NCBI RefSeq assembly: GCF_002215215.1
Contig: NZ_CP018632.1
Location: 186,501-250,500, forward strand
Length of the DNA stretch: 64,000 bases
Origin: Granulosicoccus antarcticus IMCC3135
GTDB lineage: Bacteria; Pseudomonadota; Gammaproteobacteria; Granulosicoccales; Granulosicoccaceae
Direction: 5' to 3'
Below, one piece after another: positions 30,718-51,548 of the stretch (positions within the stretch are counted from its first letter, which is position 1; every line of letters begins with the position of its first letter). A program made the position numbers and the translations under genes. Under the pieces are notes generated by a model. The model saw only the letters and a list, made by a program, of their open reading frames with translations, searched no databases and had not been told where the DNA came from.

Positions 30718-31743
30718 CTAATTGTTGATGTCCAAATCCAAATAATACTTTGCCATTTCAATTGACGCATCTTCCGAGCTGATTGCCTCAGTATTAGAAA
30801 ATGCGACGAACCAAGTATTAACTTCGTGTGCGTTAACAATAACGGTATTGAATCCTACCCAGCCACCCGTATGCACTCGCACTTCCATGCCGCCGATCTG
30901 GTCAAACCCCCATCCATAACCGTACTGAACGTCCTCTCCATTATTTGTTTTCACTTTAGAAAATATTCTTTCTGTAGTGGCAGGGCTAACCAGAATATTG
31001 TTGTCAATAGCGTGTATCCATGCTTCCATATCGGTGAGCGATGTATATACGCCATCTTCACCTTGAAGAGCATTGCCGGTGTTGTAGTCAATATTTTCGA
31101 AGAAAGGCCATGCACCATACGATATCGCCTGATTCCGAATAGTTGAAGGATACGTAATAATTGCAGTGTTCTTCATACCGGCAGGATCGAATATTCTATC
31201 TTTACTGAAGTCTTTGAACGACTGACCGGATGCGCTCTCTACAATTAACGCAAGCAGGCTGTAACCACCGTTACTGTACTCATACCTTTCACCAATTTCG
31301 AAATCCAGTTTTGTTTGGCTTTTATAGTAGGCGTAGACATCATCATTGCTGATTAACGGCTTGTTCTTGTTGGAGCTAAAGAATGCATCTCCATAGTCGG
31401 GTAGCCCGCTTAGATGATGGACAAGATGACAGACTTTAATCTTGCTCATGTATTCAGGCAAATCTACAAGATAATTTCCAATATAATGGTCTCCTGATAT
31501 TTTTCCCTGCTCTTCAAGAATGGCAACTGCCATAGCAGTGAACTGCTTTGATACAGATGCCATTCTAAAATTTGTATCGCAGTCAATACGTTCTTTCGTT
31601 TCTAGATTGCTGAGCCCATAGCCTCTTTTAAATACGGTAGTACCATCCTGTATCACCAAAACAGCCAGGCCTGGGCCGCACGCTTCATCATACTGAGCAA
31701 ACCTTGCATCAAATGGCAAAATATCTGGCTTCTCGATGGTCAT
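30718..31743 (-). CDS. Serine hydrolase, beta-lactamase class C / DD-peptidase-like
   Basis: 341 aa from ATG 31743. The catalytic SxxK is SVSK (residues 63-66), the second motif is YSN (156-158, EYSNGGYS) and the third HTGG near residue 290, as in class C-type esterases and peptidases. There is no signal peptide, so the protein would stay in the cytoplasm, which argues against antibiotic resistance and for an esterase or peptidase. Codon use is AT-rich. All surrounding cassette genes share the strand, and I read it as an integron cassette cargo whose own attC was lost to transposon debris downstream. Confidence 0.88.
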   Translation of the reverse strand: MTIEKPDILPFDARFAQYDEACGPGLAVLVIQDGTTVFKRGYGLSNLETKERIDCDTNFRMASVSKQFTAMAVAILEEQGKISGDHYIGNYLVDLPEYMSKIKVCHLVHHLSGLPDYGDAFFSSNKNKPLISNDDVYAYYKSQTKLDFEIGERYEYSNGGYSLLALIVESASGQSFKDFSKDRIFDPAGMKNTAIITYPSTIRNQAISYGAWPFFENIDYNTGNALQGEDGVYTSLTDMEAWIHAIDNNILVSPATTERIFSKVKTNNGEDVQYGYGWGFDQIGGMEVRVHTGGWVGFNTVIVNAHEVNTWFVAFSNTEAISSEDASIEMAKYYLDLDINN

Positions 31744-31880
31744 GAATTTTGCTTCATTCAACTGAGTATACTAAACACGGAAACAAGCGGTCTGTGCCAA
31801 GAGTCTATTCTATTTTTGTTCCTTGTCCAAAGGGGTTGTTTGTCTGATCAGAGCCTTGTGCGAAGATAGGTGTTTAGCGG

Positions 31881-31977
31881 ATCGAACAGCTGCAATAAGG
31901 TGAGCTTTAGGCTGGCGCGAAGGAGCGGTAGCGCAGGCGCGGCAGGGTCAAGTTACAGTTTCAATGCTTGGTTATGT
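31881..31977 (-). other. attC recombination site 1
   Basis: Outer boxes AAC (ATCGAAC at 31881) and GTT (GTTATGT at 31971) frame arms GCAATAAGGTGAGCTT and AAGTTACAGTTTCAATGC, which pair with unpaired extra bases in the right arm. In known attC sites the extra bases lie in the R''-L'' arm, so the functional orientation here is minus, the same as the gene. It lies just downstream of the HD gene at 32017, as for a cassette. Near-identical sequence recurs at 37580 and 48338. Confidence 0.75.
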
Positions 31978-32016: not shown

Positions 32017-32544
32017 TTATGTCGTCACCATCGTTGAGGCTAAACGACTGTCTCCCTCGGCGGCTATATCTTCAAATATCGTATCGAGCTTGTCAAATAA
32101 ATCCCAACGTTCTTTGCCGATTTGGTTCGCCGTTAAATCTATTATTTCAAGCTCTAAATTTTCTACCCTCTTACCTTTCCATAATTTGTCTGCTAAGGCT
32201 ACTAGCAGCTCTTCGTATGATGTTTCCATTCTTTCGTACTGTGCGTGGCTTCTACAGAATCTTGCGACTACGGGAGAAACATCGTGTTCCAATAGTAGTT
32301 TTTCTCCTGCTAACTCATGCAAGGAGCCAGGTTCATCCAATTCGTTTTTGTAAATTATTTTCCCCGCATCGTGACAAGCTGCGCCCAAGCACACTAAATT
32401 CTCATCTAGTGTAACTCCTATTTCTTTTAATTCATTAGCCAATTTTTCGGCTACTGCTCCTACGTGTATTACGTGATCTATCAGCCGGCTAGGTGCACCA
32501 AGCGATTTATAAAGTGCATAGACATCCTCTCGGCATTTGATCAT
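32017..32544 (-). CDS. HD-domain protein (putative phosphohydrolase)
   Basis: 175 aa. The HD pattern is readable as HVIHVGAVAEKLA with the first His, ACHDAGKI with the HD pair, and a later His/Asp in LLVALADKLWKG, the arrangement of HD-family metal-dependent phosphohydrolases that act on nucleotides or other phosphate esters. I prefer ATG 32544; an in-frame TTG lies 30 nt upstream. AT-rich, single, with attC site 1 starting 40 nt after its stop, so it is best read as an integron cassette. Confidence 0.8.
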   Translation of the reverse strand: MIKCREDVYALYKSLGAPSRLIDHVIHVGAVAEKLANELKEIGVTLDENLVCLGAACHDAGKIIYKNELDEPGSLHELAGEKLLLEHDVSPVVARFCRSHAQYERMETSYEELLVALADKLWKGKRVENLELEIIDLTANQIGKERWDLFDKLDTIFEDIAAEGDSRLASTMVTT

Positions 32545-32633
32545 TCTACATATCCGAAAATTGTGACGATTCAATAGAAATATATTTTTGGTGACGAGAG
32601 CTTGCCTGCTACAGATAACAGCTGCGATGTTTT

Positions 32634-32950
32634 GTGTACGCCCCGCATGGGCATGAACTTATGAGGTGGAAGTCCTCTATAGGAAGATCACTATCTGGAT
32701 CCCAATCATGAAGTCATTAGATGATAACTACTAGCGAATGGCAAGAGCCAATCCGAGAGGAACGGTCTGAAGGAAGCCGCTAGCAAACCTGTATGCTGAT
32801 GAACAAGAACATCCTATGAGGTGTATACGGAAGGCCGCCCGCAGAAGGGGAGTCAGCACAAGATCCGGAACGTCGGCCGGACGAAGCCAGATAATCTGAT
32901 GGCCACAGTAAATGATGCAGTTGTGCGGGGAAAGTTCATGTTCATATCTG
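32634..32950 (+). mobile_element. 5' remnant of a group IIC intron
   Basis: From GTGTACGCC it follows the introns at 37670 and 48429 closely (GGTGGAAGTCCTCTATAGGA, TTAGATGATAACTACTAGCG, GAACGGTCTGAAGGAAGCCG, TAAATGATGCAGTTGTGCGG) and stops resembling them after 32950. Upstream AACAGCTGCGATGTTTT looks like a collapsed attC. The rest of the intron and its RT are gone. Confidence 0.8.
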
Positions 32951-33167: not shown

Positions 33168-34745
33168 TTAGTACCGTTTGTTGTCTAGAAATCCAAGTTC
33201 GTTCTTGAAGTGCAGTTCTCTCTTTCGGGCGAATGCCTTTACAGCGTACAACTCAGATCTGGCGATCATTCTTCCTTCGATGTAAGCATATTCAGTATCC
33301 AACAGATCCTTGTGAACTTTAAAAGTAAGCGTTTCACTATCAAGCTGTATTAGATGCCGATCAAAAAGCTTATGTACATCGCTTCTTAACACAATACCGT
33401 TATTTGAATCACTGGTCTCACCTCCGTAATAAGGAAAGATGTGCGCGGCCTCCAAGATCTCGATTATCTTGCAATGTGTTAACTCGCACCAAGGTCCATG
33501 CTTTCTCAGCAATAACTTCCTAAATTCGCTTTGTCCCTCTCGTGCAACGACAGAACGAACGTTATGCTTATAAGACGACGGAGTGAATATACCGCTCACG
33601 TCATTATCTATGGCATCGGCATCAATATATCCATCCTGCACAAGCAAACCAATGTATTTATCGATAGCTTGCAGCACAGGATCCACTCCAGCGCGTACGC
33701 GTCGCAATCCAAAAACTGCCGCCAGCTCGTCACTGTCTAGAACAGCGGAATCTCTCCAAAGATCACGTAATACTTCATTTGTGATGAGACTAGGATTTGT
33801 ATATATTCTAGTTACTAAATCATCATTTATTTCTACTTTATATTTTTCCCTCGATAAAGATTCTTCGTTAGCGCTGTATTTTTTGGCATCGACGCCAGAC
33901 TCTATATTATTGATATCGCCATTATTTGATTGCTCAGTCTCTACAATAGCTGATATCGAACCCATCACGTTACTCAAGGGCAATTTATACTTATCAAACA
34001 AAGACTTGTTAGCCTGCGCCTGAGTATCACCAACAGCACTATAGAGAATTATTCCATTATCATCCATCGCTTCTGATAGCCAGTGTCCATACTCCTCATC
34101 ATACATGGATTTAAATACCAAGCTTACTGGCTTGTCATGCTTTTGACCACGCTTTACAATTTCCGAGGCATTCGGAAACAGTGATTTTTTTTCTAAGATC
34201 TCTCTTTTTTTTATGATTGATCTCTTTCTATTTTCACTCATTTCTTGGTTTTTAAAATCTGACCAATGACCATCAATACGAAATGTCACCTCGGATCTAG
34301 CTTTAATTTCATGGTTACCATGTAATTTTACTGACCCCGCGGACCAACGGTTAACCGCCCGAACGAAGGCTTTGTGATTCTGCCTAGGCCATTGGCTAAT
34401 AGCACGTGAGAGGTTCTGTACCGATTCGCATAATTGAAGCTTCGATGAGGCACTTTCAAGCTCTATAAGCCAACGCTGCACGATTTCCTCACCATCACTG
34501 GAAGTAAATCCCCAGCTAAGATTATTATTTTTAGTCAGAACTTTTGCGGCATGCCTCGCGTCCAAAACTGACCTGAAATAGTTTGTATTCCACTTTCCTA
34601 CATAAATACTTTCTTTGTACCCAAGAACATATCTATCAGCGTTTCCACGGCACCTTCCCGCTATACAAAATGATGAGCCTGCACTGGCGAAGCACAATTC
34701 TGATGTAGACACTCTGTCTAACAGTAATTCTAATTCACTGGCCAT
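33168..34745 (-). CDS. HNH endonuclease domain protein
   Basis: 525 aa. The C-terminal 100 residues are an HNH_2-type nuclease domain: EFRKLLLRKHGPWCELTHC, AAHIFPYYGGETSDSNNGIV, LRSDVHKLFDRHLI, with the His-Asn-His set in AAHI, NNGI and VHKLFD. The first 400 residues resemble nothing I know and contain a highly charged middle part (residues 150-210 KRSIIKKREILEKKSLF). Such an architecture, a variable sensor or DNA-recognition part plus a nuclease, is common in restriction and defence proteins. Starts at ATG 34745. A cassette in the minus-strand array by context; no attC could be found downstream because an intron remnant lies there. Confidence 0.82.
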   Translation of the reverse strand: MASELELLLDRVSTSELCFASAGSSFCIAGRCRGNADRYVLGYKESIYVGKWNTNYFRSVLDARHAAKVLTKNNNLSWGFTSSDGEEIVQRWLIELESASSKLQLCESVQNLSRAISQWPRQNHKAFVRAVNRWSAGSVKLHGNHEIKARSEVTFRIDGHWSDFKNQEMSENRKRSIIKKREILEKKSLFPNASEIVKRGQKHDKPVSLVFKSMYDEEYGHWLSEAMDDNGIILYSAVGDTQAQANKSLFDKYKLPLSNVMGSISAIVETEQSNNGDINNIESGVDAKKYSANEESLSREKYKVEINDDLVTRIYTNPSLITNEVLRDLWRDSAVLDSDELAAVFGLRRVRAGVDPVLQAIDKYIGLLVQDGYIDADAIDNDVSGIFTPSSYKHNVRSVVAREGQSEFRKLLLRKHGPWCELTHCKIIEILEAAHIFPYYGGETSDSNNGIVLRSDVHKLFDRHLIQLDSETLTFKVHKDLLDTEYAYIEGRMIARSELYAVKAFARKRELHFKNELGFLDNKRY

Positions 34746-37003: not shown

Positions 37004-37345
37004 CTACCCATTTACTCCGCCCAGCCGTTTGTATACGGTGAAGGCGCCATCAATTAGACTTGACTTCGGATTGAGCCTGCAGTGCGAATCGATTTCGGTT
37101 TCGATTTGTCCCGGTTTAATCGACAACATGTTTTTCTGAAAACTGTTTGAGCCGTCGTGCTGTGATTGCGCAGACAAATATCCGTCTATCCAGAATTTCA
37201 TCGCTCTTTTTTCTTCAATGTTCGCAGTTGCAAACAAGCTACAAGTAACGAAGCCCAAGCTCAAAGCGGCCGCCTCCTGAGCGTTTCCCACTCCAGAGAC
37301 ACTGAATGCTAGCACTGCAACTTTTAAAATACTTTCAATTTTCAT
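37004..37345 (-). CDS. Periplasmic HdeA/HdeB-like small protein
   Basis: 113 aa with a Sec signal (hydrophobic residues 8-20, likely cut after GNA). The mature part has the pattern CSLFATANIEEKRAMKFWID-GYLSAQS...HCRLNPKSSLID: two Cys, Trp and GY as in HdeA-type acid-stress chaperones and related small periplasmic proteins. The match is by pattern only. AT-rich and minus strand; attC site 2 lies upstream, as expected for the next cassette's boundary. Likely a cassette gene. Confidence 0.65.
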   Translation of the reverse strand: MKIESILKVAVLAFSVSGVGNAQEAAALSLGFVTCSLFATANIEEKRAMKFWIDGYLSAQSQHDGSNSFQKNMLSIKPGQIETEIDSHCRLNPKSSLIDGAFTVYKRLGGVNG

Positions 37346-37579: not shown

Positions 37580-37669
37580 ACCGAACAGCCGCAATATACT
37601 AAACTTGAGGTCGACACGCTGAAGCAGTAGCGCAGGCGTGGCAGGGTCAAGTTACAGCCTCATTGCTTT
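37580..37669 (-). other. attC recombination site 2, split by group IIC intron
   Basis: CCGAACAGCCGCAATATACT then AAACTTGAGG, and at the right GGGTCAAGTTACAGCCTCAT followed by TGCTTT, match site 3 (48338) over the whole length. The intron starts at the place where the right GTT box is expected. Orientation minus, by the extra bases in the right arm. Confidence 0.72.
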
Positions 37670-38190
37670 GTGTACGCCCAGCATGGGCATGAACTAATGA
37701 GGTGAAAGTCCTCTGTAGGAAGATCACCATCCCGTGATTCCAGCTATGGAGTCATTAGATGATAACTACTAGCGAATGGCAAGGGCCAATCCGTGAGGAA
37801 CGGTCTGAAGGGAGCCGCTAGCAAACCTGTGAGCTGATGAACAAGAACATCATATGAGGCGTAGGCAGAAGGCGAGTCAGCACAAGATGACGAAGCCAGG
37901 TGATCTGATGGCCACCGTAAATGATGCAGTTGTGCAGGGAAAGTTCATGTTCTTATCTGGGGAGATCTGTTTGACGTGCGATCGGCCCTTTTCCAGTGAG
38001 GCGCTGGATGACCAAGCCTTGGCTCTTTGGACTCCATCAGCCAAAGAGAGCGAATCGATGGACACCGATAGCGCCGATGCGGGCAACCGCACTGGTGATC
38101 AAACAGAAGTCAGCAGACGGCATAGTAGCCAAACGCTCACCGTAATGGGTGAGACACGGTGAAGACGGAAGGCCGCCCCGCCTGAACATA

Positions 38191-38526
38191 GTGAATAAAG
38201 GAGGAGCCCTGACAGACTTGAGCACACGAACACCGTCCGGTGATGGCGTGACTCAGCGTCCTGTCACGAAGCCAGCCTTTGGTGACGATCTACTTGAACG
38301 CATTCTGGACTCTGATAATCTACGCAGAGCCTGGAACCGTGTTCGAGCCAATAAGGGAGCTGCAGGTGTCGATGGCATGTCCATTGATGAGTTTCCTGGC
38401 TGGGCAAAAGCCGGGCACTGGAAACGTGTTGTCAACGAACTGGAAACAGGTCGTTACCAGCCCTCTCCGGTCCGACGGGTTGAGATCGACAAGCCTGACG
38501 GCAGTAAGCGCCCGCTAGGTATTCCG
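38191..38526 (+). pseudogene. Intron reverse transcriptase, part 1 of 3
   Basis: Starts at GTG 38191 (the ATG of the intact copy). DLLERILDSDNLRRAWNRVR and NKGAAGVDGMSIDEFPG, then GSKRPLGIP form RT domain 0-1. The frame enters the first recombinase element right after GIP and stops at 38550. Confidence 0.9.
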
Positions 38527-38563
38527 ACGGTCCACGCGAACTACACCTGATACCAATTCCAGT

Positions 38564-38827
38564 TTGGGATGTGTCACGGTAACTCATCCCTTCCATCCAT
38601 TGACCCAGCAACGTTTTGATGTCCTGAAGCGCCGTCGCGTATCGGGCGTGGAGACGTTGATTATTCGTCACCCTGAGCGCGGCACTCTGGCCGTTGCGCA
38701 AGAGTGGACAGACTGGGAGCCGCTAAGCGAATTAGCCTCACCGGGTGTGATCCTGGAGTTTGATTCGCTGCTGACTCTTGCCACGCTGGTACGTCAACTG
38801 ACCGAGTCCGACGGAGTTGACGAATGA
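38564..38827 (+). CDS. DUF5372-like small protein of recombinase element
   Basis: 87 aa from a TTG. THPFHPLTQQRFDVLKRRR at the start and ILEFDSLLTLATLVRQL at the end are characteristic of a small conserved protein encoded ahead of large serine recombinases. Role unknown, perhaps a recombination directionality or DNA-binding factor. Confidence 0.7.
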   Translation: MGCVTVTHPFHPLTQQRFDVLKRRRVSGVETLIIRHPERGTLAVAQEWTDWEPLSELASPGVILEFDSLLTLATLVRQLTESDGVDE

Positions 38828-38875
38828 TTTCATGTAGACTATTATCTGGGCAGTCATATACGTGGTCCGACAACT

Positions 38876-39208
38876 ATGCAGGATATTTCGACCACTCAAC
38901 TCAGGCGCCGGCGCAAGCAACTGTTACGCAAAATCCCACCGTTGGATACTGTTCTACGTGGCTCGCTGATCGAACGCTACAAACGTTGCGGCAAACCAAA
39001 CTGCAAGTGCGCTACTGGCCAGGGACACGGCCCGAAGTACTACTTGTCGATCAGCCGCACGGGGGCACGCCCCGCCATGGATTACGTCCCACAAGACACT
39101 CAGCCGCAAGTGGCCGAGTATCTTGCCAACTATCGCGAGATCCGCGACAGGCTCGATCAATTGTGCGCGATCAATCAGGAGTTGTTGCGCCGTCGGGAAC
39201 GGTTTTAG
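38876..39208 (+). CDS. DUF6788-like small protein of recombinase element
   Basis: 110 aa. RRRRKQLLRKIPPLDTVLRG, then IERYKRCGKPNCKCATGQGH and GPKYYLSIS: a Cys pair motif CGKPNCKC seen in this family, possibly metal or DNA binding, and a coiled C-terminal part (REIRDRLDQLCAINQELLRR). Second gene of the three-gene element; accessory role inferred from constant neighbourhood. Confidence 0.7.
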   Translation: MQDISTTQLRRRRKQLLRKIPPLDTVLRGSLIERYKRCGKPNCKCATGQGHGPKYYLSISRTGARPAMDYVPQDTQPQVAEYLANYREIRDRLDQLCAINQELLRRRERF

Positions 39209-39347
39209 GTGCTGGCGGTGAGTGCCTCATCTACCACGCTCACCGCCACCTTCGATACCACTGCCGCCGCAACACTGATGGCCAACATGCTAGAGGCCTG
39301 GTTGCGCGAGCCCATCGATTCCTGCCGCCCTGTGGAGGAGTGTACCG

Positions 39348-41411: not shown

Positions 41412-41450
41412 CGCCAACTGCACGAGGTGCATTATGAAACCACGGTCCCG

Positions 41451-41795
41451 AGTGTTTTAGATCGGATTATCCAGCAAGCTATTGCCCAGATACTAACGCC
41501 AGTGTTTGATCCAGACTTCTCTGAGAGTAGTTTTGGATTCAGACCAAGGCGCAGTGCGACACAAGCGGTTAAGCAGGTTCACTCCATCATCAAGGCGGGA
41601 CGTCGCATTGCTGTGGATGTGGATTTGTCCAAGTTCTTTGATCGGGTAAATCATGATCTGCTCATGTCACTTCTCGGAAGAAAGATTCGAGATAGACGTG
41701 TGTTACGATTGATCAAACTCTACCTGAGAGCTGGAGTTATCGATAACCAGCTCTATCAAGAGAGTCGAGACGGTGTTCCTCAGGGCGGCCCACTT
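41451..41795 (+). pseudogene. Intron reverse transcriptase, part 2 of 3
   Basis: SVLDRIIQQAIAQILTPVFD, SFGFRPRRSATQAVKQVHSI, VDVDLSKFFDRVNHDLLMSL and RDGVPQGGPL: RT motifs 1 to 4 without the YADD box. The frame enters the second recombinase element after GPL. Confidence 0.9.
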
Positions 41796-43466
41796 ACTCC
41801 CCTTACAACTGTGCATAAAATGGTCTCCTTTATCTGATTTCGTCTGTGGGCCACTGCTGACACTGTGTGATGGTGTTGGATCAATACGGAATATCACCAC
41901 CACTTCCTCCTTGTAGATCTCAACTCGTTTGACTAGTGCTCGGATGGTATCGCGTTTGGTGATGAAGTCCGTAGTCGATAGATTCACGTTGATGGTTTTA
42001 GCAAATTCCTCCAAGTGGTTGATAACCAGAAACAGCTCACGCTGTGCGGATTGGGACTGATCCCCTTGCTCGATTTGCTCTTCGATTTCCGTGATACGTG
42101 CCTTTATCTGTTTGATCTTGGGCTCAAAATCCTGTTGATCTATGACATCACTGGCATAGCTGTCAATCAGGCGTGACGCACCCTTTTTCAATTGTGCTTT
42201 CTGCTGTTTCAACGCCGTGATGTCGTGCCTCTCATGCTCCTTTTTCTCCAGAACATTCAAGCGCCGTTCGTACTCTTTTTTCAGCCTCTCAGGGTTCTCC
42301 AGTGCATTGATCACCTCGGCCCACACCAACTCATCCAGCGTCTGAGTTCGCACCTGGGAATTGTCACAAATTCTTTGACCACCAAAGCGATAGGCATCCG
42401 TTCCGATACAACGATAGTAGGCATATTGAAACTTTCCTTTAGCGGTTGATGGGCTGACTCTTTTGCCGTAGTAGGCGTAGTGACAATGCCCACATACCGT
42501 CAATCCTTGCAATAAATGTTTAGCCCCACGCTCTCCAACTCGTGCTCGCTTTCGGTTCTCGTCCAGTTGAGCTTGTACCGCCTCGTACAACGGCTGACTT
42601 ACGATCGGCGGAACAGGAATCTCGATCCAATCCTTACGTTGCACTCGGTGCGTTGAGTGCGGCTTCTTGGGTGTCTCGGCACTGTGCTTCTGGGGTCGTA
42701 CCCTCGGCATTAATGCACCGGCTTTGGTCTTTCCAAAAGCGGCTTTGCCCATGTACGCCGGATTCTGCAGCATGCTCCAGACAACACTACGATCCCAGTG
42801 GCTTTTTCCTGTTTTTGTAGGGATATTCGCTTCACCAAGACGCCGACATACCGTTCCAATACTGAATCTGTCGACCCCTATCCAGTTGAATATCTGACGT
42901 ACTGTTTTCGCCTGTTCAAGATCAATCACATACTGGGCAGGTTTACCGTCGAGTTGCTTACGTGTATAGCGATAGCCGTAGGGTGCTCCAGAGAGTACGT
43001 TAACGCTGCCCACACGAGCACGGTGAAGCTTCCCTCGACGATGACGTTCGATGATCTTGGCTCTCTCGTACTCGGCAAACATCCCTTGCATCTGCAACAA
43101 CATTTCCTCTTCGGGCGAGGTGCCAACCTTGTGGTTTAGAAAGTTGACGACAACGCCTGCGCTGGCAAACTCCTCCATGAGCAAAGCCTGGTGGGCATAC
43201 TTGCGCGAGAGGCGATCTGGGGAATGAATATACAGGTGATCAACGGCTCCGATAGAAATAGCATCACGCAACCTCTCCAATTCCGGACGGATCAGCGTAG
43301 CGCCACTCACTCCCGCATCACTGAAAACCATGTCATCGATTAGCTGCCCGCCATCGCTGACAATCCTCTCTTTCAGCGCCTGAATCTGGCTATCGATGGT
43401 GCAATCCTTGGCCTGCTTTGGCGATGAGACTCGTGCGTAGAGTGCGCAGATGTTTTGATGGCTCAT
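41703..43466 (-). CDS. Serine recombinase of element 2
   Basis: 587 aa as open. The resolvase domain begins ICALYARVSSPKQAKDCTID with the catalytic Ser in RVSS; YIHSPDRLSRKYAHQALLME carries the conserved Arg pair. A Recombinase domain (APYGYRYTRKQLDG to NPAYMGKAAFG) and a zinc ribbon (CGHCHYAYYGKR and YYRCIGTDAY, CDNSQ) follow, then a coiled-coil. The element ends at 41796, so the last 31 residues (from SKWAALRN) are supplied by antisense intron sequence; the proper stop seems to lie outside the element. Start ATG overlaps the upstream small gene as ATGA. Likely active enzyme. Confidence 0.9.
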   Translation of the reverse strand: MSHQNICALYARVSSPKQAKDCTIDSQIQALKERIVSDGGQLIDDMVFSDAGVSGATLIRPELERLRDAISIGAVDHLYIHSPDRLSRKYAHQALLMEEFASAGVVVNFLNHKVGTSPEEEMLLQMQGMFAEYERAKIIERHRRGKLHRARVGSVNVLSGAPYGYRYTRKQLDGKPAQYVIDLEQAKTVRQIFNWIGVDRFSIGTVCRRLGEANIPTKTGKSHWDRSVVWSMLQNPAYMGKAAFGKTKAGALMPRVRPQKHSAETPKKPHSTHRVQRKDWIEIPVPPIVSQPLYEAVQAQLDENRKRARVGERGAKHLLQGLTVCGHCHYAYYGKRVSPSTAKGKFQYAYYRCIGTDAYRFGGQRICDNSQVRTQTLDELVWAEVINALENPERLKKEYERRLNVLEKKEHERHDITALKQQKAQLKKGASRLIDSYASDVIDQQDFEPKIKQIKARITEIEEQIEQGDQSQSAQRELFLVINHLEEFAKTINVNLSTTDFITKRDTIRALVKRVEIYKEEVVVIFRIDPTPSHSVSSGPQTKSDKGDHFMHSCKGSKWAALRNTVSTLLIELVIDNSSSQVEFDQS

Positions 43467-43827
43467 TGCGGGCTCCTGGATGGCCTCAGAATGTCAGGAT
43501 CAGCTTGTTGGTCCGACTCGGCCTCATCAGTGTTGGGTGGTGTAGAGAGGCTCACAGCCACTGTGGGGCTGAATCTCTGGTAGGCCTGCTGCAAACAATC
43601 GTGGGAGAAGCGGTTGGGTTCGAACTCGACCCTAACAGTCAGCACCTGGCGTCGTTTGCGCTTGGTCATGACGTTGCCCCTGTAGTCCTGGAGATCGACG
43701 GATCAATGGCTACAAACAGCTCAATGTGCGCTTCTGTATTGCCTTTGAAATGACCGCTGAGACACGCTCTGCCAATGCGGATACCCCAGTGTACGCCGGT
43801 TTTTGCTCTTTTGTTGGTAGCGTACTT
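41796..43827 (-). mobile_element. Serine-recombinase mobile element 2 (2.0 kb)
   Basis: Set by comparison with the intact intron, where CCCACTTTCGCCG is continuous. Here CCCACTT ends at 41795 and ACTTTCGCCG resumes at 43824, leaving ACTT on both sides as the likely crossover core or short duplication. It encodes a recombinase and a small upstream gene on the minus strand and is unrelated in gene content to element 1, although both chose the RT gene. Confidence 0.85.
43463..43669 (-). CDS. Small basic protein upstream of recombinase 2
   Basis: 68 aa, start MTKRKRRQVLTVRVEFEPNR, with ATGA overlap to the recombinase gene, so cotranscribed and coupled. No family identified; size, position and coupling suggest an accessory factor of recombination. 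Confidence 0.6.
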   Translation of the reverse strand: MTKRKRRQVLTVRVEFEPNRFSHDCLQQAYQRFSPTVAVSLSTPPNTDEAESDQQADPDILRPSRSPQ

Positions 43828-44499
43828 TCGCCGTTATTGTCGAATGTCATGCTTGACCCTTTAGACAAGGAACTGGAAAGACGCGGCCATCAATTTACTC
43901 GCTACGCGGACGACTTTACTATTTTAGTCAGTAGTCAGCGTGCTGGCGAACGGGTGCTACACAGCATCAGCCAATTCTTGCAAAACCGTTTGAAACTGGT
44001 TGTGAATACAACTAAAAGCCGTGTCGTTAAAGCCAAAGATTGTCAGTTCCTGGGTTTCACTTTCGGGGCTGGCAGAATTCAATGGCACGCATCGTCCTTG
44101 CACAATTTCAAACGCGAGGTACGACGTCTAACGAACCGTAACTGGGGTGTATCAATGCGCTACCAGATATTCAGGCTCAGTCAGTATCTACGTGGCTGGG
44201 TAAACTATTTTGGTATTGCCAGCTGCTATAACCAGTGTGTCGAACTCGATCATTGGATTCGACGCCGTTTACGAATGGCCTACTGGCGGCAGTGGCGTTT
44301 ACCTCGTACCAAAATAGGAAAACTGCTAAAGCTGGGAGTGCAGATACAGACAGCGGTTGCGTGCGGTCGCACGAGTAAAGGACCTTGCCGTAGTTCCAAG
44401 ACCCCGGGCATTCAAGAGGCGTTATCTAACGCTTACTTGAAAGCTGAAGGCTTGTTCTCATTACGCCAAGGGTGGATCTCACCTCACCATTCAGTATGA
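43828..44499 (+). pseudogene. Intron reverse transcriptase, part 3 of 3
   Basis: SPLLSNVMLDPLDKELERRG, RYADDFTILVSSQRAG with the catalytic YADD, LGFTFGAGRIQWHASSLHNF and the maturase domain down to LFSLRQGWISPHHSV. The frame is intact to the natural stop. Without the two insertions the protein would differ from the copy at 48935 at only a few residues. Confidence 0.9.
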
Positions 44500-44763
44500 A
44501 ACGCCCTGTGCGGACCCGCATGCAAGGTGTTGTGGGGAGGGCTGGCTAAACACCAGCCCTTACCCGATTATGCATTTTCCCGGTTCCAGCTAGTGTCCAT
44601 CCGAAAACAGCCTGAGAGCCGCACAAACCGCCAATCCGGAACTCAGACTGCACTAAATTGGTCTCACCTATTACCGGAAGATAAGCGGTTTCGTGATTTT
44701 GGCGTGTTCCTACAAGCATGGCCCTTATTTCAGACACGACGAACCCTGAGCGTGCCCGCCCAT

Positions 44764-46222
44764 CTGGGTAATTCAGTAAACTCAGTGGTTCAGACAGGGC
44801 GTAGTCGAGCCATCACCGTCAGGTTATGGCTGACCACCGATGACCAGACAAATGAGCGGTAGTGTTGCAGACCCTTCCAGGTACATCGGGTTAATCCGTA
44901 GGCGCGTTTCAGGCACGAAATGCCTGCTTCAATACCGGCTCGAAAGTTCTTTAACTGGCGATACACCCAGGCACTCTTTGCCATATCCGCGATACTGAGA
45001 CCGCGTTTCTTGTTGAAGGCCATGTCGGTGACACCCATGGCCTTTACGGCCTCCAGGTTCGCCCCACTGGCATAGCCTCCGTCGGCGGCCACTTGTCGAG
45101 GGGGCTGATCGAACAGAGTCACGTGACGCTTAAGCATCGGCAGCAATCGATCCGTATCGGCAGGGTTGCCCTCTTCGATCACCACATCCAGGATCAAGCC
45201 GCTTTTGCCCGAACTCAGATTGAGTTTGTGCCCGTACTCGATGTCTCTGGCACCCTTGATCACGATGTCGGTATGAGCTTCAAATATACTGAATATTTTC
45301 TCTTGTGCCGGGACCTTCTCACCATTGAACACGCGTCGTTGTGTTTGATCGATTACCCTTTGAATACAGGGTTTAAAGCGTGCTACCTCCGCTTGCCAAT
45401 TTGCCTTTTTGTGTATGTCTGTGCAAGAGAGGCTCACGGCCATCTCTGCCTTTTCCAGATTGGCCAACGTCACGGATGTCACCTGGATCAGATCGGCATA
45501 CAGCGGTACTTTCTCCGTTATGCCTTTCGTATTGAAGATCTGATGAGCACGTCGTTTGGCCCGGCGTTGATGATTGACGAATTCGATCACCGGCTTCCCG
45601 GGCAGTTTGCCAACCGCTTTGAGTAGTCGGGTCATGACACGCACGCTATCGAACAGCAGAGAGCTGTCTGTGGGTTCGTGAATATCCGACTCGGTGACTG
45701 TGCTGTCAATGCGGATCTTTCTCGCATTCTCAACCTTCTCGAGCTGCGCTTCCTGGAGCACGCAGTGATTGATTCGCTCCCAGGTCTCGGGTGTGATCCG
45801 ACTGATCGTATCCTGGAGAGCGGACTTCTTCGGAAACCAGCCCATGGGCAAACGGGCAAAGGCCTGGAAGGAGGCTGAATCGCACAAATGGAACGACAAC
45901 TCGTGGTAACTCAGTTGACGCATCTGCTTGAGCAAGGCGCATCGCACGACACACTCAACGGGTAGTCCGACACGCCCCGTTTTCTGCACAGCCTTCACCC
46001 GTAAATCGGCTGCAATCCAGTCCAGAACCTCAACGTGTCGATCCAGAAACGCTGAAATGGCCTTCAACTCAAGGCCGATCTCGTGTTCGCTGAATGATTC
46101 GAATATACTGGTGTTGACAGTGCGCTGAATTCGCATTGTTACCTCCGGTGGTTTTTGTGATTCCTTGTAAATCAGTCGCTTGATGCACAAGGTAGCAAAA
46201 ATCACCGGAACTTATTACCCAG
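44764..46222 (-). mobile_element. ISNCY-like insertion sequence
   Basis: Imperfect terminal inverted repeats start CTGGGTAAT at 44764 and end ATTACCCAG at 46222. One transposase gene on the minus strand fills it. No target duplication recognised. It ends inside the last codons of the GIY-YIG gene, whose stop TAA is given by the IS terminus, and separates that gene from its attC. Confidence 0.75.
44790..46136 (-). CDS. ISNCY-type transposase
   Basis: 448 aa from ATG 46136, which has GGAGG 6 nt upstream. The N-terminal part (VECVVRCALLKQMRQLSYHE, LSFHLCDSASFQAFARLPMG) and the core ARKIRIDSTVTESDIHEPTD with the first catalytic Asp match ISNCY/IS1202-like transposases. QVAADGGYASGANLEAVKAM holds the second acid and NFRAGIEAGISCLKRAYGL the third Glu. 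Looks complete, so the element may be mobile. Confidence 0.85.
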   Translation of the reverse strand: MRIQRTVNTSIFESFSEHEIGLELKAISAFLDRHVEVLDWIAADLRVKAVQKTGRVGLPVECVVRCALLKQMRQLSYHELSFHLCDSASFQAFARLPMGWFPKKSALQDTISRITPETWERINHCVLQEAQLEKVENARKIRIDSTVTESDIHEPTDSSLLFDSVRVMTRLLKAVGKLPGKPVIEFVNHQRRAKRRAHQIFNTKGITEKVPLYADLIQVTSVTLANLEKAEMAVSLSCTDIHKKANWQAEVARFKPCIQRVIDQTQRRVFNGEKVPAQEKIFSIFEAHTDIVIKGARDIEYGHKLNLSSGKSGLILDVVIEEGNPADTDRLLPMLKRHVTLFDQPPRQVAADGGYASGANLEAVKAMGVTDMAFNKKRGLSIADMAKSAWVYRQLKNFRAGIEAGISCLKRAYGLTRCTWKGLQHYRSFVWSSVVSHNLTVMARLRPV

Positions 46223-46799
46223 AAATTCCCGAATTCGGATTTGATTTCAATCGTTTAGCGTTTTCGGACGGACACCAGCTAGATTCTGGGTGCAGGCGTA
46301 TTAACTCTTCTTCTATGCAATTTTTCAAGCTTTGTGGCTCAATCTCTGCCCATGCGATTTTGACGCTGCCACCACCCTGAACATGATCTATAATCCTGCT
46401 TAGTTTTGCTCCAGTTTTTTCATGCTTTTTTATTAGGTGATTGCGAATCCGCGATCTCGGTAGATTCCTGGTTGTTTTTCCAATATAGCAAATCGTGAAT
46501 TCGTCAGAATTGATGTCACGAATAAATATTGCGTATATGTTTGCCCTACCTGAAACGGACTCTAGTAGAGTAGCATTTTCTTCTTGTAAAGCTATAGAGT
46601 TCCAAAGTGCAATATTCGATGATGCGTATGCAACCGGTCTTTGGTTATTCTCATTGAAGAGATGATCATTAACTTCTCGTACAAATGCAATCAATTCATC
46701 GGTCTTATCAAATTCCATACAAATTCTCTCAAATAATTTACCTATATTTCTGCGAGTTTGATGATGCATGTTCGAAGCGGAAGATAAGAAAGTGAGCAT
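46215..46799 (-). CDS. GIY-YIG-like nuclease domain protein
   Basis: 194 aa. GRANIYAIFI and, 12 residues on, CYIGKTTRNLPRSRIRNHLI reproduce the GIY-YIG pair followed by the Arg-rich helix; a Glu in CIEEELIRLHP would fit the metal ligand. The first 80 residues are unknown. The C-terminus ends NSGISG with a stop supplied by the ISNCY element, so the natural end may be lost. It lies 18 nt after the membrane-anchored gene and seems to share a cassette with it. AT-rich. Confidence 0.65.
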   Translation of the reverse strand: MLTFLSSASNMHHQTRRNIGKLFERICMEFDKTDELIAFVREVNDHLFNENNQRPVAYASSNIALWNSIALQEENATLLESVSGRANIYAIFIRDINSDEFTICYIGKTTRNLPRSRIRNHLIKKHEKTGAKLSRIIDHVQGGGSVKIAWAEIEPQSLKNCIEEELIRLHPESSWCPSENAKRLKSNPNSGISG

Positions 46800-46817
46800 C
46801 TAATTTTCGACTGCAGT

Positions 46818-47342
46818 TTATTTCGATTCTTCATCATCAAATAGAACAGGTATATAGCCATCGTGAATATTGGAATTAGAAAACCCCACATTTGGACTCA
46901 TTTTCTGCAAACCGTTGTCACCCTTGAACAGCAAGCTCAAAGACATATGACCTTGGTTTAAGTAACCTCGAGCAATATCTTTTGGTAATAATTTTACAAT
47001 ACCTCTGACCTTCGATTGCTTCATTATTGACAGATTGGTAAAGGTCGAATCTCCACCAAAACTTATCACCTCGAAAGCGGCACTTTGATACCTGCCACCT
47101 CCCGGAAACCAGTAAAACACGTCACCTCTACCGTAGAGTAGAATTTCATTATCTGTATAATTCTGAAACTCTACAATTAATGATACTTCGCTATCGTCTG
47201 CGCGAGAGGGGAAATCTTTAAAATGATGATGAACCTTTTCTATTAGATAAAACCCGAAAGACAATAGACCTACAAAAGTGCCTATAGCTGTCAACTTGCT
47301 AGGTAAAGACCATGACTTCCATTGTTTTCTAGTCGGTATCAA
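46818..47342 (-). CDS. Membrane-anchored hypothetical protein
   Basis: 174 aa from a TTG preceded by AGGA. After WSLPSKLTAIGTFVGLLSFG, a single N-terminal helix seen in many cassette-type and defence-associated proteins, a soluble domain of about 130 residues follows on the inner or outer face. That domain is beta-rich (SEVSLIVEFQNYTDNEILLY) and has no known family. Starts within 50 nt of the cassette boundary at 47384, as is typical for integron cassettes. Confidence 0.7.
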   Translation of the reverse strand: MIPTRKQWKSWSLPSKLTAIGTFVGLLSFGFYLIEKVHHHFKDFPSRADDSEVSLIVEFQNYTDNEILLYGRGDVFYWFPGGGRYQSAAFEVISFGGDSTFTNLSIMKQSKVRGIVKLLPKDIARGYLNQGHMSLSLLFKGDNGLQKMSPNVGFSNSNIHDGYIPVLFDDEESK

Positions 47343-47383
47343 TATTTTTTCCTGTTACTTAATATAAGGCATAACGACAAGAG

Positions 47384-47479
47384 GCATAACATCGCATTCA
47401 CCTGCAATTGACATTCCCCGAACAGAGCGTCAGCGTCGGGAGGGCAATGTCAAATGACAGGTGCAATGTACTGTTCGAT
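47384..47479 (-). other. attC recombination site, distinct type
   Basis: GCATAAC at 47384 and GTTCGAT at 47473 are the outer boxes. Between them CACCTGCAATTGACATT pairs with AATGTCAAATGACAGGTG, leaving two unpaired bases in the right arm, and an inner loop CGAACAGAGCGTCAGCGTCG remains. The extra bases again give minus orientation. It lies 105 nt after the stop of the minus-strand gene at 47584, where a cassette attC belongs. Its sequence differs from sites 1 to 3. A second GGCATAAC stands 15 bp to the left. Confidence 0.78.
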
Positions 47480-47583: not shown

Positions 47584-48123
47584 CTACTGGTTTTTCTCTA
47601 GATGCTTTAAAATGACACTGTTAGATGCCTTGCGAATAACAACATTTTCTGAGCTTTGTTCTATCTCTATGAATCCTGATCTCGCAGGATTTCTGTGTAG
47701 AGTGGAAAGGCGTTCTAACTGCATATCCTTATATCTCGACGGTAGAGATGAAATTATTCTCTCATCTAAGTCAAAATATCCTGCAAGTTTTCTTGCTGCA
47801 GTTTGAGCATCAATTAGCGTTGCCTCCCCTTCGCTAAAACGATCTAGTTGCATTAAAACGGCATCGACTAAGTCATTGACCAAATTGGAATTCTTTCTTA
47901 GTTCCTTTTTTACTTCGCGTGATATTTTTCGAAAATCTTTTTCATTCATGCCTACGTTGCTTGGGCGTTCTTCACTTAAAAGCGGGAATCTCACTTTCCC
48001 TTGCTTGTTGTGAACGGTTTTCTCAAGATGCACATTTTTCCAATGCACACCTTGCCCATCTCCTGCTTGATGAGTATCGAAGGAAATATTTTGTCCATTT
48101 ATTAGTTTTCTTAACTTTGCCAA
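47584..48123 (-). CDS. Hypothetical cassette protein
   Basis: 179 aa, TTG start with AGGA 8 nt upstream. Charged and mostly helical (FRKISREVKKELRKNSNLVN, DLVDAVLMQLDRFSEGEATL); the end is beta-like (SGFIEIEQSSENVVIRKAS). Not recognised. Bounded by attC sites on both sides (47384 and 48338), so this is the clearest single-gene cassette of the window. Confidence 0.7.
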   Translation of the reverse strand: MAKLRKLINGQNISFDTHQAGDGQGVHWKNVHLEKTVHNKQGKVRFPLLSEERPSNVGMNEKDFRKISREVKKELRKNSNLVNDLVDAVLMQLDRFSEGEATLIDAQTAARKLAGYFDLDERIISSLPSRYKDMQLERLSTLHRNPARSGFIEIEQSSENVVIRKASNSVILKHLEKNQ

Positions 48124-48337: not shown

Positions 48338-48428
48338 AATCGAACAGCCGCAATAAGGTGAACTTGAGGCTGACGCGGCGAAGCGGCAGCGCAGACGTGG
48401 CTGGGTCAAGTTTCAGCTTCATTGCTTT
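48338..48428 (-). other. attC recombination site 3, split by group IIC intron
   Basis: ATCGAAC, then arms GCAATAAGGTGAACTTGA and TCAAGTTTCAGCTTCATTGC pair almost fully, with a G and an A left over in the right arm. The intron begins right after GCTTT, before the second outer box. Orientation minus. Nearly the same sequence as sites 1 and 2. Confidence 0.78.
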
Positions 48429-50356
48429 GTGTACGCCCAGCATGGGCATGAACTAATGAGGTGAAAGTCCTCTGTAGGAAGATCACCATCTAGTGATTCC
48501 AGCTATGGAGCCATTAGATGATAACTACTAGCGAATGGCAAGGGCCAATCCGTGAGGAACGGTCTGAAGGAAGCCGCTAGCAAACCTGTGAGCTGATGAA
48601 CAAGAACATCATATGAGGCGTAGGCAGAAGGCGAGTCAGCACAAGATGACGAAGCCAGGTGATCTGATGGCCACCGTAAATGATGCAGTTGTGCAGGGAA
48701 AGTTCATGTTCTTATCTGGGGAGATCTGTTTGACGTGCGATCGGCCTTTTTCCAGTGAGGCGCTGGATGACCAAGCCTTGGCTCTTTGGACTCCATCAGC
48801 CAAAGAGAGCGAATCGATGAACACCGATAGCGCCGATGCGGGCAACCGCACTGGTGATCAGACAGAAGTCAGCAGACGGCATAGTAGCCAAACGCTCACC
48901 GTAATGGGTGAGACACGGTGAAGGCCCGAACATAATGAATAAAGGAGGAGCCTTGACAGACTTGAGCACACGAACACCGTCCGGTGATGGCGTGACTCAG
49001 CGTCTTGTCACGAAGCCAGCCTTTGGTGACGATCTACTTGAACGCATTCTGGACTCTGATAATCTACGCAGAGCTTGGAACCGTGTTCGAGCCAATAAGG
49101 GAGCTGCAGGTGTCGATGGCATGTCCATTGATGAGTTTCCTGACTGGGCAAGTGCGGGGCACTGGAAACGTGTTGTCAACGAACTGGAAACAGGTCGTTA
49201 CCAGCCCTCTCCAGTCCGACGGGTTGAGATCGACAAGCCTGATGGCAGTAAGCGCCCGCTAGGTATTCCGTGCGTTTTAGATCGGATTATCCAGCAAGCT
49301 ATTGCCCAGATACTAACGCCAGTGTTTGATCCAGACTTCTCTGAGAGTAGTTTTGGATTCAGACCAAGGCGTAGTGCAAAACAAGCGGTTAAGCAGGTTC
49401 ACTCCATCATCAAGGCGGGACGTCGCATTGCTGTGGATGTGGATTTGTCCAAGTTCTTTGATCGGGTAAATCAGGATCTGCTCATGTCACTTCTCGGCAG
49501 AAAGATTCGAGACAAGCGTGTGCTACGATTGATCAAACGTTACCTGAGAGCTGGGGTTATCGATAACCAGCTTTATCAAGAGAGTCGAGACGGTGTACCT
49601 CAGGGCGGCCCACTTTCGCCGTTATTGTCGAATATCATGCTTGACCCTTTAGACAAGGAGCTGGAAAGACGCGGCCATCAATTTTCTCGCTACGCGGACG
49701 ACTTTACTATTTTAGTCAGTAGTCAGCGTGCTGGCGAACGGGTGCTACACAGCATCAGCCAATTCTTGCAAAACCGTTTGAAACTGGTTGTGAATACAAC
49801 TAAAAGCCGTGTCGTTAAAGCCAAAGATTGTCAGTTCCTGGGTTTCACTTTCGGGTCTGGCAGAATTCAATGGCACGCGTCGTCCTTGCACAATTTCAAA
49901 CGTGAGGTACGACGTTTAACGAACCGCAACTGGGGTGTATCCATGCGCTACCAGATATTCAGGCTCAGCCAGTACTTACGTGGCTGGGTAAACTATTTTG
50001 GCATTGCCAACTGCTATAACCAGTGTGTCGAACTCGATCATTGGATACGACGCCGTTTACGAATGGCCTACTGGCGGCAGTGGCGTTTACCTCGTACCAA
50101 AATAGGAAAACTGTTAAAGCTGGGAGTTAAGATACAGACAGCGGTTGCGTGCGGTCGCACGAGTAAAGGACCTTGCCGTAGTTCCAAGACCCCGGGCATT
50201 CAACAGGCGTTATCTAACGCCTACTTGAAAGCTGAAGGTTTGTTCTCATTACGCCAAGGGTGGATCTCACTTCACCATTCAGTATGAAACGCCCTGTGCG
50301 GACCCGCATGCAGGGTGTTGTGGGGAGGGCTGGCTAAACACCAGCCCTTACCCGAT
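48429..50356 (+). mobile_element. Intact group IIC intron in an attC site
   Basis: Begins GTGTACGCCCAGC and ends in the domain V and VI hairpins (GCCCTGTGCGGACCCGCATG, GGGCTGG...CCAGCCC) and TTACCCGAT. About 500 nt of ribozyme precede an uninterrupted RT gene. All parts look functional. Insertion into attC fits the known habit of the IIC-attC group. It runs opposite to cassette transcription. Confidence 0.88.
48935..50287 (+). CDS. ltrA: Group II intron reverse transcriptase/maturase
   Basis: 450 aa, the protein that helps splicing and copies the intron RNA into a new site. RT motifs: SFGFRPRRSAKQAVKQVHSI, VDVDLSKFFDRVNQDLLMSL, GVPQGGPLSPLLSNIMLDPL and RYADDFTILV with the YADD catalytic pair; the maturase X domain follows (LRGWVNYFGIANCYNQCVEL). 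There is no endonuclease domain, as in class C. ATG 48935 corresponds to the GTG of the broken copy; an in-frame TTG at 48953 with GGAGG close by is an alternative. Confidence 0.93.
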   Translation: MNKGGALTDLSTRTPSGDGVTQRLVTKPAFGDDLLERILDSDNLRRAWNRVRANKGAAGVDGMSIDEFPDWASAGHWKRVVNELETGRYQPSPVRRVEIDKPDGSKRPLGIPCVLDRIIQQAIAQILTPVFDPDFSESSFGFRPRRSAKQAVKQVHSIIKAGRRIAVDVDLSKFFDRVNQDLLMSLLGRKIRDKRVLRLIKRYLRAGVIDNQLYQESRDGVPQGGPLSPLLSNIMLDPLDKELERRGHQFSRYADDFTILVSSQRAGERVLHSISQFLQNRLKLVVNTTKSRVVKAKDCQFLGFTFGSGRIQWHASSLHNFKREVRRLTNRNWGVSMRYQIFRLSQYLRGWVNYFGIANCYNQCVELDHWIRRRLRMAYWRQWRLPRTKIGKLLKLGVKIQTAVACGRTSKGPCRSSKTPGIQQALSNAYLKAEGLFSLRQGWISLHHSV

Positions 50357-50562
50357 TCGGTATGCGTTTAAAATTGACATGTCCGTCGTGACTCGCGCTC
50401 CGTTGCTAATGTTAGTATGTCAAGACTAATCAAAATAGTGTCTACTGCCAGCGAGCATACGGCGTAAAATTATATCCAATTGCAATAAAGAAAATAGAAA
50501 TTTCTCAACAACTGCGTTAGCTCTCTATTCGCACTGCGATCTGCTGCGTTTCCATATGTTAT

Positions 50563-51548
50563 TTATTGGCAATTTGAAAATTCTCTCCCAACATCATCTT
50601 CATACTTAGTCAGCAATTTCATAAACAAAATGGATTTCGTGTAGTCCAACGCGATTTTTTCTTCTTGTATGTATGCAGTTAAAAAACAATTCGTAATCTG
50701 ATTAAGCATAATTGCCGTGGCATGTGCTGGCAAAGTCATTCCTGAATTTGATTGGCCAATCAAAAGTAAATCTTCTTTCGCTTCCTCCATACCCAGTAGT
50801 GTTTTCATTTCACTGTAATCAGCGTGGATATTTCTACTCGCTAGTTTGTAATAGTGAGACCATCCATCTAAATTTACATGCCCTCTTAATTTTTCCAGCT
50901 TTGAATACCCAGTAAACTTGCGAGCCCAGTGCCAGTGAATTTCGCCCTCACTCAATGCTTCTTTTAGCTCTAAAGCGTCCTCTAACTCCTTATCAGTATA
51001 TGGTTCAACTTCCATTTTCTCTGCAGTTTTTTGATACTCTTCAATTCCTTCTACATTTTTTATATAGCCGTGTCTAATATAATCAACTGCAGCACTCTTC
51101 CCATATTTATGAATTATCAAGCAAGTTACTGATATCTCGAATAAAGTCCGCCACCTAGCCAAAGCACCATCAGGATAACCTCCCTTTATTAAATGTATAA
51201 TCTCTGATGTAATTCTGCATGCATTCGCATGGAGTCTCATGAGTACGCCAAGTAGCGGATCATTTTCTAACTCCGGGAAACTTAGATAATATTCTTGAAA
51301 CCAGAAAGCGGCTTCCTGAGTCGCAATGTAATGCAACTCAAGTTTATCGAGTCCTGGCCCCCAACGTTTACAATTTCTATCTATAAACTCTTGATGCTCT
51401 TTGCGCTGGCTTAATAAGTTGTCTTTTTCTGTGTCTTTTGTTGTTTCGAAAAATATTTTCGTAGCCTCATCCAGTAATTCTTCAAATTCAATCTGACTAT
51501 CTTTTTTTCAAGCCTACTTTGAGCTGCTTTCAAAATATCGTCAAACAT
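50563..51548 (-). CDS. DUF5677 family protein with one-base frameshift near its start
   Basis: The main frame 50563-51336 encodes LRLHANACRITSEIIHLIKG and GYPDGALARWRTLFEISVTC, the hallmark of DUF5677 (helical, unknown function). The true start is probably ATG 51548 (MFDDILKAAQSRLEKK, AGGAA upstream), but a run of seven A near 51507 is one base short to join it to DSQIEFEELLDEATKIFFET in the main frame. This is either a slippage mutation or a sequence error. If corrected the protein has about 328 residues. Minus strand; it would be the cassette served by attC site 3. Confidence 0.72.

Follow-up and report, generated by a model that had tools for sequence, protein, structure and literature searches.

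An integron cassette array without an integrase in Granulosicoccus antarcticus, its group IIC introns and two recombinase elements placed in reverse transcriptase motifs

The DNA considered here (the window, 64,000 bases in full) comprises bases 186501-250500 of the single 7,783,862-base contig of Granulosicoccus antarcticus IMCC3135, and the part of it between 30.7 and 51.5 kb contains minus-strand cargo genes, four attC sites sharing one orientation, plus-strand group IIC introns inserted in two of these sites, and two elements, each with a gene for a large serine recombinase (LSR), which interrupt the reverse transcriptase (RT) gene of one of the introns. An earlier account made from the letters and their open reading frames (ORFs), hereafter the sequence-only reading, had described this region as an integron cassette array without an integrase. 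The arrangement can be read, with a probability of roughly 0.87, as three superimposed layers of mobile DNA, viz. an integrase-less array, group IIC introns and two LSR elements which appear to have docked in RT motifs.

The attC array, its introns and the nested elements

The attC sites were sought with a covariance model (R1) built from eight sites, all of them outside the window so as to avoid circularity; three of these are found beside an intact intI in a congener (genome G012, locus L051) and five come from another array of the same genome (L089). Searched against 177,798 bases, made up of the window plus seven further loci, the model matched four places in the window, all on the minus strand, and no further match was found in the window at E<=5. 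The match at 48339-48435 (40.0 bits, E 3.2e-8) corresponds to the site 48339..48428 of the DUF5677 cassette, whose R'' end has been shifted by an intron to about 50358. The matches at 31881..31977 (38.0 bits, E 1.1e-7), belonging to the HD-domain cassette, and at 47384..47479 (36.1 bits, E 3.9e-7), belonging to the cassette of the gene 47584-48123, are uninterrupted. The fourth match, at 37580-37676 (26.6 bits, E 1.9e-4), corresponds to the site 37580..37669 of a two-gene cassette (46215-47342), and in this case the R'' end has been shifted by an intron to 44570, these boundaries being read from the sequence. The palindromes at 31881, 37580, 47384 and 48338, which the sequence-only reading had taken for attC sites in one orientation, are all matched by this independent model (E 3e-8 to 2e-4), and the eight minus-strand cargo genes that it had listed are present. 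The four attC sites serve four cassettes; for the genes at 33168-34745, 37004-37345 and 30718-31761 R1 detects no attC. Cassettes are present as described between 30.7 and 51.5 kb, but much of this stretch consists of plus-strand introns, two LSR elements and insertion sequence (IS) elements; the integron-cassette interpretation is incomplete rather than wrong, the group IIC introns and the LSR elements nested in them having been overlooked.

The opposite orientation for the sites at 31.9, 37.6 and 48.3 kb, with a plus-strand left end of ATCGAAC or ACCGAAC, was considered and rejected, as R1 matches the minus strand only; an R' of GTTCGGT is also present at other attC sites of the same genome. 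A cruder palindrome scanner of our own, superseded by the covariance model, gave a strong score in 14001-53000 for the 47.4 kb site only (18.2, with none of four shuffles reaching 13). It gave no whole-site match for the other three sites, in two of which the R'' box is split off by an intron, and an inner piece of the 37.6 kb site scored 10.2, inside the shuffle range. Over the whole genome, where the counts are lower bounds with 150 of 842 first-look candidates scored, R1 gave 24 matches, of which nine form an array at 6.999-7.013 Mb (G000:C1:6999207-7013277), six another at 7.624-7.635 Mb (7624418-7634675) and four lie in the window, the remainder being three single sites and two opposite-strand echoes. 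These two further arrays are likewise without an integrase.

For the integron integrase, the profile TIGR02249 was used with its cut-off of 265 bits. No match above this cut-off was found in the 7.78 Mb genome, 23 weak tyrosine-recombinase matches lying below it, and an intI with the IntI-specific stretch, as a complete integron would have, was likewise not found. Since four attC sites lie close together in one orientation and no intI exceeds the cut-off genome-wide, the window array is a cluster of attC sites lacking an integron integrase (CALIN), as had been proposed. A candidate IntI at 16153-16410 and 19160-19774 (minus strand) was rejected, because it skips profile positions 178-242, which hold the IntI-specific stretch, scores below the cut-off, and fits an Xer-like model about equally (107.6 against 111.2 bits). 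An IS66-type element splits an Xer-like tyrosine recombinase in the region 16153-19774 (minus strand), and the 8-bp repeat GTCAGATG stands at both ends. An integron integrase was found at E<=1e-40 in 24 of the 57 genomes searched (including the present one, which has no match), and 16 of the 26 searched congeners, some of whose genomes are incomplete, have intI. The flank of a congener's integron maps here to C1:902325-904118 (77% identity), and no attC was found at C1:902001-915000. With intI in so many of its searched members, as against three attC arrays and no intI in this genome, the genus would offer a natural setting in which to see what becomes of cassettes when no integrase is present.

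The two introns lie on the plus strand, opposite to the minus-strand cassettes, and both begin directly after an attC stem, at the R'' end. The Rfam family RF02001, which we take to denote group IIC, matches at 32749, 37787 and 48546. Copy 1 (37670..44569; RF02001 130.8 bits) has its RT gene in three pieces, and copy 2 (48429..50357; RF02001 135 bits, RF00029 44.1) is uninterrupted, with an RT (48908-50287, plus strand) showing RVT_1 and GIIM domains; the 3' domain RF00029 reaches its gathering score in copy 2 only (50287-50356). The DNA of the two copies is 95-97% identical in three blocks, the 3' end included, and a 99.5% identical twin lies antisense in the attC array at 7.63 Mb. The IIC-type RNA and the insertion at R'' on the attC bottom strand agree with the IIC-attC introns, which insert antisense to the cassettes (PMC7923331, which cites Leon and Roy 2009). 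The 5' exon ends in GCTTT at both copies, the target at copy 1 being GCTTT/ATGC. This is not the consensus TTGT/T, which is given in PMC7923331 as the majority target and hence is not strictly defining. A 5' fragment of a third group IIC-type intron lies between the HD and HNH genes (32634..32950, plus strand; RF02001 80.5 bits) and has 82% DNA identity to the intact intron. Elsewhere in the window, a group II intron remnant of another Rfam family, RF01999, is found with an RT fragment at 27459-28552 (plus strand), and 3742-3831 is a further stretch resembling the 3' part of the intron.

When copy 1 is compared with copy 2, two insertions are seen in its RT gene, which are the LSR elements 1 and 2. 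Element 1 (38526..41447, plus strand) interrupts the motif LGI|P between CC cores at 38524-38525 and 41448-41449, the core lying within the codon for the P of LGIP. It contains a DUF5372 (Y4bD/Y4pK-type) ORF (38564..38827, plus strand; PF17342 1.8e-18), a DUF6788 ORF (38876..39208, plus strand; PF20586 5.7e-32) and the gene for LSR1, a recombinase of 687 amino acids (39348..41411, plus strand; PF00239, PF07508, PF13408). An ORF of 175 amino acids at 38824-39351 was rejected as a gene of this element, the DUF6788 ORF occupying the region in another frame. Element 2 (41795..43824, minus strand) is inverted with respect to the RT and interrupts the motif PQGGP|LSP between CT cores at 41793-41794 and 43825-43826, within the codon for the L of PQGGPLSP. 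Its recombinase, LSR2 (587 amino acids; 41703..43466, minus strand; PF00239 4.8e-32, PF07508, PF13408), has as its last approximately 30 codons the RT gene read antisense (41703-41792), residues 557-587 matching intact RT copies; because the frame continues in this way, the annotated C-terminus depends on the insertion site. Just upstream of LSR2 there is an ORF of 68 amino acids (43463..43669, minus strand) with no Pfam match, and ORFs with a similar EPxRF stretch are seen by eye upstream of several relatives too.

Both recombinases have the resolvase, recombinase and zinc-ribbon domains of LSR integrative elements, and both elements, which are 2.0-2.9 kb in size with no clear cargo, are inserted precisely at a short shared core (CC or CT) for which empty copies exist. 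The empty site for both is provided by intron copy 2 and by its 99.5% twin at 7.63 Mb, intact intron RT copies being present in the same genome. A second copy of element 1 is found at C1:7485016-7487977 (99.6% over 2962 bp), inserted at the same codon of an RT of 45% amino acid identity to that of copy 1, and its empty site is seen in four uninterrupted copies of that RT gene, with 97-98% DNA identity on both sides; the empty-site comparison for the second copies covers this RT only. A second copy of element 2 (C1:5144135-5146112, 98.6% over 1978 bp) lies beside an RT of 35% amino acid identity, the same motif being cut. At the level of sequence, these comparisons establish the anatomy of the elements, their junctions and empty sites, and the recurrence of the same codon in diverged RTs.

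The cargo genes, all on the minus strand, begin with a serine hydrolase of beta-lactamase fold (30718..31761; PF00144 5.4e-54), followed by an HD-domain gene (32017..32574; PF01966 2.6e-10), an HNH endonuclease-domain gene (33168..34745; PF13391 3.6e-11) and a gene for a small HdeA-like protein (37004..37345; PF06411 1.9e-5, 25.4 bits against a cut-off of 22). The genes at 46215..46799, 46818..47342 and 47584..48123 match no family above cut-off; as a single attC serves the first two, they form one two-gene cassette. The last is the DUF5677 gene (50563..51336; PF18928 5.6e-26), the upstream part of which, to about 51548, probably lies in another frame. The 3' end of the gene 46215-46799 has been altered by an IS element sitting in it (44585..46283, minus strand), which has 24-nt terminal inverted repeats, 88% complementary, and a DDE transposase gene (44790-46205, PF01609). 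An IS-like remnant, presumably resembling IS91, lies at about 35.1-36.7 kb. On its right-hand margin the array has a run of CTT triplets (51585-51628), immediately upstream of the DUF5677 gene, and farther out there are a perfect 40-nt inverted repeat (28746-28785/29496-29535), whose arms, separated by 710 nt, may be the termini of a small element, and a gene of a dimethylsulfoniopropionate-lyase family adjoining that for the DctM subunit of a TRAP transporter (53000-55023, minus strand).

Insertion sites of related recombinases

Loci with relatives of LSR2 were taken from genome contigs (32) and plasmids (11 of the 30 listed matches, 52 records having matched), and those of LSR1 on plasmids from 14 of the 30 listed matches (453 records having matched); extra loci came from searches of 369 and 398 genomes, the present genome included. 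In these searches LSR1 passes E 1e-60 in 4 of the 369 and 12 of the 398 genomes, and LSR2 in 3 of the 398 (own included). Before counting, 26 overlapping loci of the own genome (L056-L081) were excluded. If an RT is regarded as lying alongside when an RT match occurs within 1.8 kb on at least one side, then 37 of 49 LSR2 rows and 15 of 35 LSR1 rows have one; by source, this is so for 26 of the 32 genome-contig and 5 of the 11 plasmid loci of LSR2, and for 9 of the 14 plasmid loci of LSR1 (seven LGIP, two FFD). Some rows are not independent, viz. 13 copies in Fukatsuia and the pairs L030 with L121 and L024 with L107. Of LSR2 relatives in general, at least 7,911 of 8,000 scored in a protein search pass E 1e-80, a count of sequence matches and not of target sites.

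At least one junction was read in all 37 RT-flanked LSR2 rows and in 10 of the 15 such rows of LSR1; of the remainder, L024, L107, L115 and L125 gave a junction in a separate reading, and L114 has no readable junction. Alignment gaps had displaced the readings for L016, L027, L030, L121, L032 and L122, which were brought into register by eye; the junction of L096 is unresolved on one side. Within each clade the RT is cut at one codon, after which a similar element end follows. For LSR2 the cut codon is that for L, I or V and the core is formed by its first two bases, as a rule CT, AT or GT; the insertions occur in both orientations relative to the RT. For LSR1 the motif cut in the 15 RT-flanked rows is LGIP in ten and FFD in five. 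The latter motif is the target of a side clade (L114, L115, L125 and L024/L107), which cuts the RT near residue 184 of the RT denoted RTa, the C-terminal half resuming at the FD of motif A in L024/L107, L115 and L125. One plasmid, pWW53 (L107), and a near-twin contig (L024) carry an LSR2-type and an FFD LSR1-type element around a single small piece of RT; this can be read as a double insertion into one RT gene, like that in the window; in L106 the two types also lie side by side.

The hosts of RT-flanked LSR2 elements include Pseudomonas, Marinobacter, Paraglaciecola, Fukatsuia, Cupriavidus, Propionivibrio, Rhizobium, Streptomyces and planctomycetes, and those of LSR1-LGIP elements, besides the source genome, Burkholderiaceae, Microvirga and two cyanobacteria. 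Group II intron RNA, of at least two intron families, was found in 10 of the 12 RT-flanked loci given to Rfam, and none by Rfam in L083 and L125. A single symbiont genome, that of Fukatsuia, accounts for 13 of the 32 genome-contig LSR2 loci (L018-L023, L029, L032, L033, L035-L037 and L040), in several of which two N-terminal or two C-terminal RT halves face each other across the element, which suggests rearrangement between the copies.

In the trees, from which L030, L038, L121, L095 and L135 were dropped as too short, a single change suffices for the LGIP label in the case of LSR1 (9 rows; support 90/95), as against a shuffled mean of 8.1, with none of 500 shuffles as low, and the FFD label covers five of the six rows of its clade. 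On the LSR2 tree, where L025 was labelled 'other' though its junction was read at PQGG, the PQGG rows form one five-row clade and 29 of the 41 other rows, and the label needs six changes. A clade of six LSR2 rows (L108-L110 and L117-L119), from alphaproteobacterial and cyanobacterial plasmids, has no RT within the search distance. By eye, RT-like letters are seen at one junction of L022 and L029, which were counted as lacking an RT.

Proposed explanation and its alternatives

If the arrangement arose as we propose, group IIC-attC-type introns would have retro-homed into the R'' ends of attC sites, antisense to the cassettes, and two unrelated small elements, each comprising little more than an LSR gene and an attachment site, would have recombined site-specifically into the RT gene of a single intron. 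The recombination would take place at a two-base core within a motif conserved among RTs (LGI|P in the case of element 1, PQGGP|(L/I/V)SP in that of element 2), the crossover core being the first two bases of one codon, and the recombinase would chiefly read those bases of the motif that are fixed, at the first and second codon positions, while tolerating differences in the third. The attB sites of LSRs are imperfect dyads. Some dyad can be seen by eye in the fixed bases of the codons for GG-x-(L/I/V)-SP (GGN-GGN-NNN-NTN-TCN-CCN), and the element ends are nearly symmetric, GGCGTA-NT-(A/T)(A/G)CGCC in many of them. The dyad of the motif together with the near-symmetric ends could explain both the two orientations and a target common to RTs which have diverged at third positions. 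The niche may be that of a safe and widespread dock, as the RT of a selfish intron would be split at no cost to the host, introns occur in several copies, and distant bacteria share one and the same catalytic motif. The insertions would silence the RT, and an intron copy whose RT is removed by insertion could then move only with RT supplied from elsewhere.

For the broader proposition, that RTs are a recurrent dock for at least three LSR clades of two diverged lineages, we consider it reasonably probable that each clade reads one motif (LGIP, FFD or PQGGPLSP) via degenerate DNA, and that these elements are cargo-poor hyperparasites in several phyla which inactivate group II introns and of which two can be stacked in one RT gene, as in the window and on pWW53. 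If this is true, a large unnamed set of 'recombinase family proteins' would gain a definite target and group II introns a named natural enemy. It would also mean that site-specific recombinases evolve to match a conserved protein motif even though third codon bases diverge. This would have a bearing on the evolution of LSR specificity, each enzyme having many natural attB variants, and some intron RT genes that are broken, as well as rearrangements associated with RTs, e.g. those around the Fukatsuia copies, could be accounted for in this way.

Several observations weigh against this explanation. All of the evidence is drawn from sequence, recombinase activity being predicted, and the relatives were taken from best-scoring lists and not at random. 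No RT lies within 1.8 kb in 12 of 49 LSR2 and 20 of 35 LSR1 rows; 18 of the 19 placed RT-less LSR1 rows fall in clades without RT rows, and of the 11 placed RT-less LSR2 rows six form a clade and five (L022, L028, L029, L033 and L034) lie among RT-flanked rows. The core bases differ between the two ends in L011, L016, L039, L105 and L122 (first base), so that strict core matching is no rule, and in L009, L024/L107, L120 and L124 a different residue replaces the second G of PQGG; as the second glycine codon is not kept in these loci, a GGN-GGN dyad can be no more than part of the code. At some loci, e.g. L018, L040 and L105, the RT halves that are joined come from two different RTs or are both of one kind, which indicates that later rearrangement is common. 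The second copy of element 2 is found in the genome without its other end, and the R'' of the 48.3 kb attC, once the intron is removed, is by eye a poor match.

Of the alternatives, the one surviving best, though improbable, is that of a regulated switch, in which the element is excised under some condition and the RT restored, like the sigK interruptions in some spore-formers. LSR elements can be excised with a directionality factor, a case of this kind being described in PMC5025042, and the small upstream ORFs could, as a conjecture, be such factors. However, the present sequence data give no sign of excision or of conserved regulation, the second copy of element 2 is truncated, and where unlike RT halves are joined reversibility has ended. 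Somewhat less probable again is that these LSRs are generalists with multiple targets, which struck RT genes merely because group II introns are numerous. Multi-targeting LSRs do exist (PMC10083194), and the rows without an RT beside them would fit this view, but a generalist would strike other RT codons, whereas the RT-flanked clades cut at one codon even in RTs of 35-45% amino acid identity, and the RT-less rows form clades of their own in 18 of 19 cases for LSR1 and 6 of 11 for LSR2. It is very unlikely that the palindromes are transcription terminators or IS ends instead of attC sites: the region is full of IS elements, and terminators can also be targets of IIC-attC introns (PMC7923331), but a model derived from attC sites linked to a congener's intI and from another array matches them in the cassette orientation. 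That the LSR genes belong to particular introns by old inheritance, as cargo of domain IV, is hardly credible, for although the elements sit inside an intron which on moving would carry them, a 99.6% identical element occurs in two RTs of 45% identity with close element-free copies for both, both insertion orientations are seen, and the host introns match different Rfam group II families.

Comparison with known systems

The introns resemble the group IIC-attC introns in having a IIC-like Rfam RNA, RT and maturase domains with no endonuclease domain found, and an antisense position at R'', but they differ from them in the target GCTTT/ATGC at copy 1 in place of TTGT/T, and in an RT interrupted twice. 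The array is like other CALINs in that several attC sites in one orientation, each behind a cargo gene, occur in a genome with no intI above cut-off, but it has been invaded by introns and LSR elements, and its genus carries intI in most of the congeners searched.

The LSR elements share with IS607-type serine transposases a small size and presumed movement by a serine recombinase; however, LSR2 scores 31.7 bits against a family cut-off of 110 bits, and its target is narrow whereas that of IS607 is loose. The nearest NCBIfam models are those of Ccr and XisF (LSR2: CcrB 127 bits, XisF 117 bits; LSR1: XisF 85 bits), but these scores are far below the cut-offs of 900 and 375 bits, and the targets of the Ccr and XisF recombinases differ from RT motifs. 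A further likeness is to the gene-targeting LSR integrative elements surveyed in PMC10083194, which have the same domain set, a two-base core and a target which follows the clade. In contrast to these, the elements in the window are only 2.0-2.9 kb long and carry no clear cargo, and their target, entered in either orientation, is a catalytic motif in the RT of another mobile element. In the main text of that survey the term 'reverse transcriptase' does not occur and 'intron' occurs once, and searches of the open-licence literature, most subscription papers lying outside this scope, gave no description of LSR elements that target the RT motifs of group II introns. The unexpected part of this locus, in comparison with these systems, is the apparent docking of cargo-poor LSR elements in the catalytic motifs of intron RTs.

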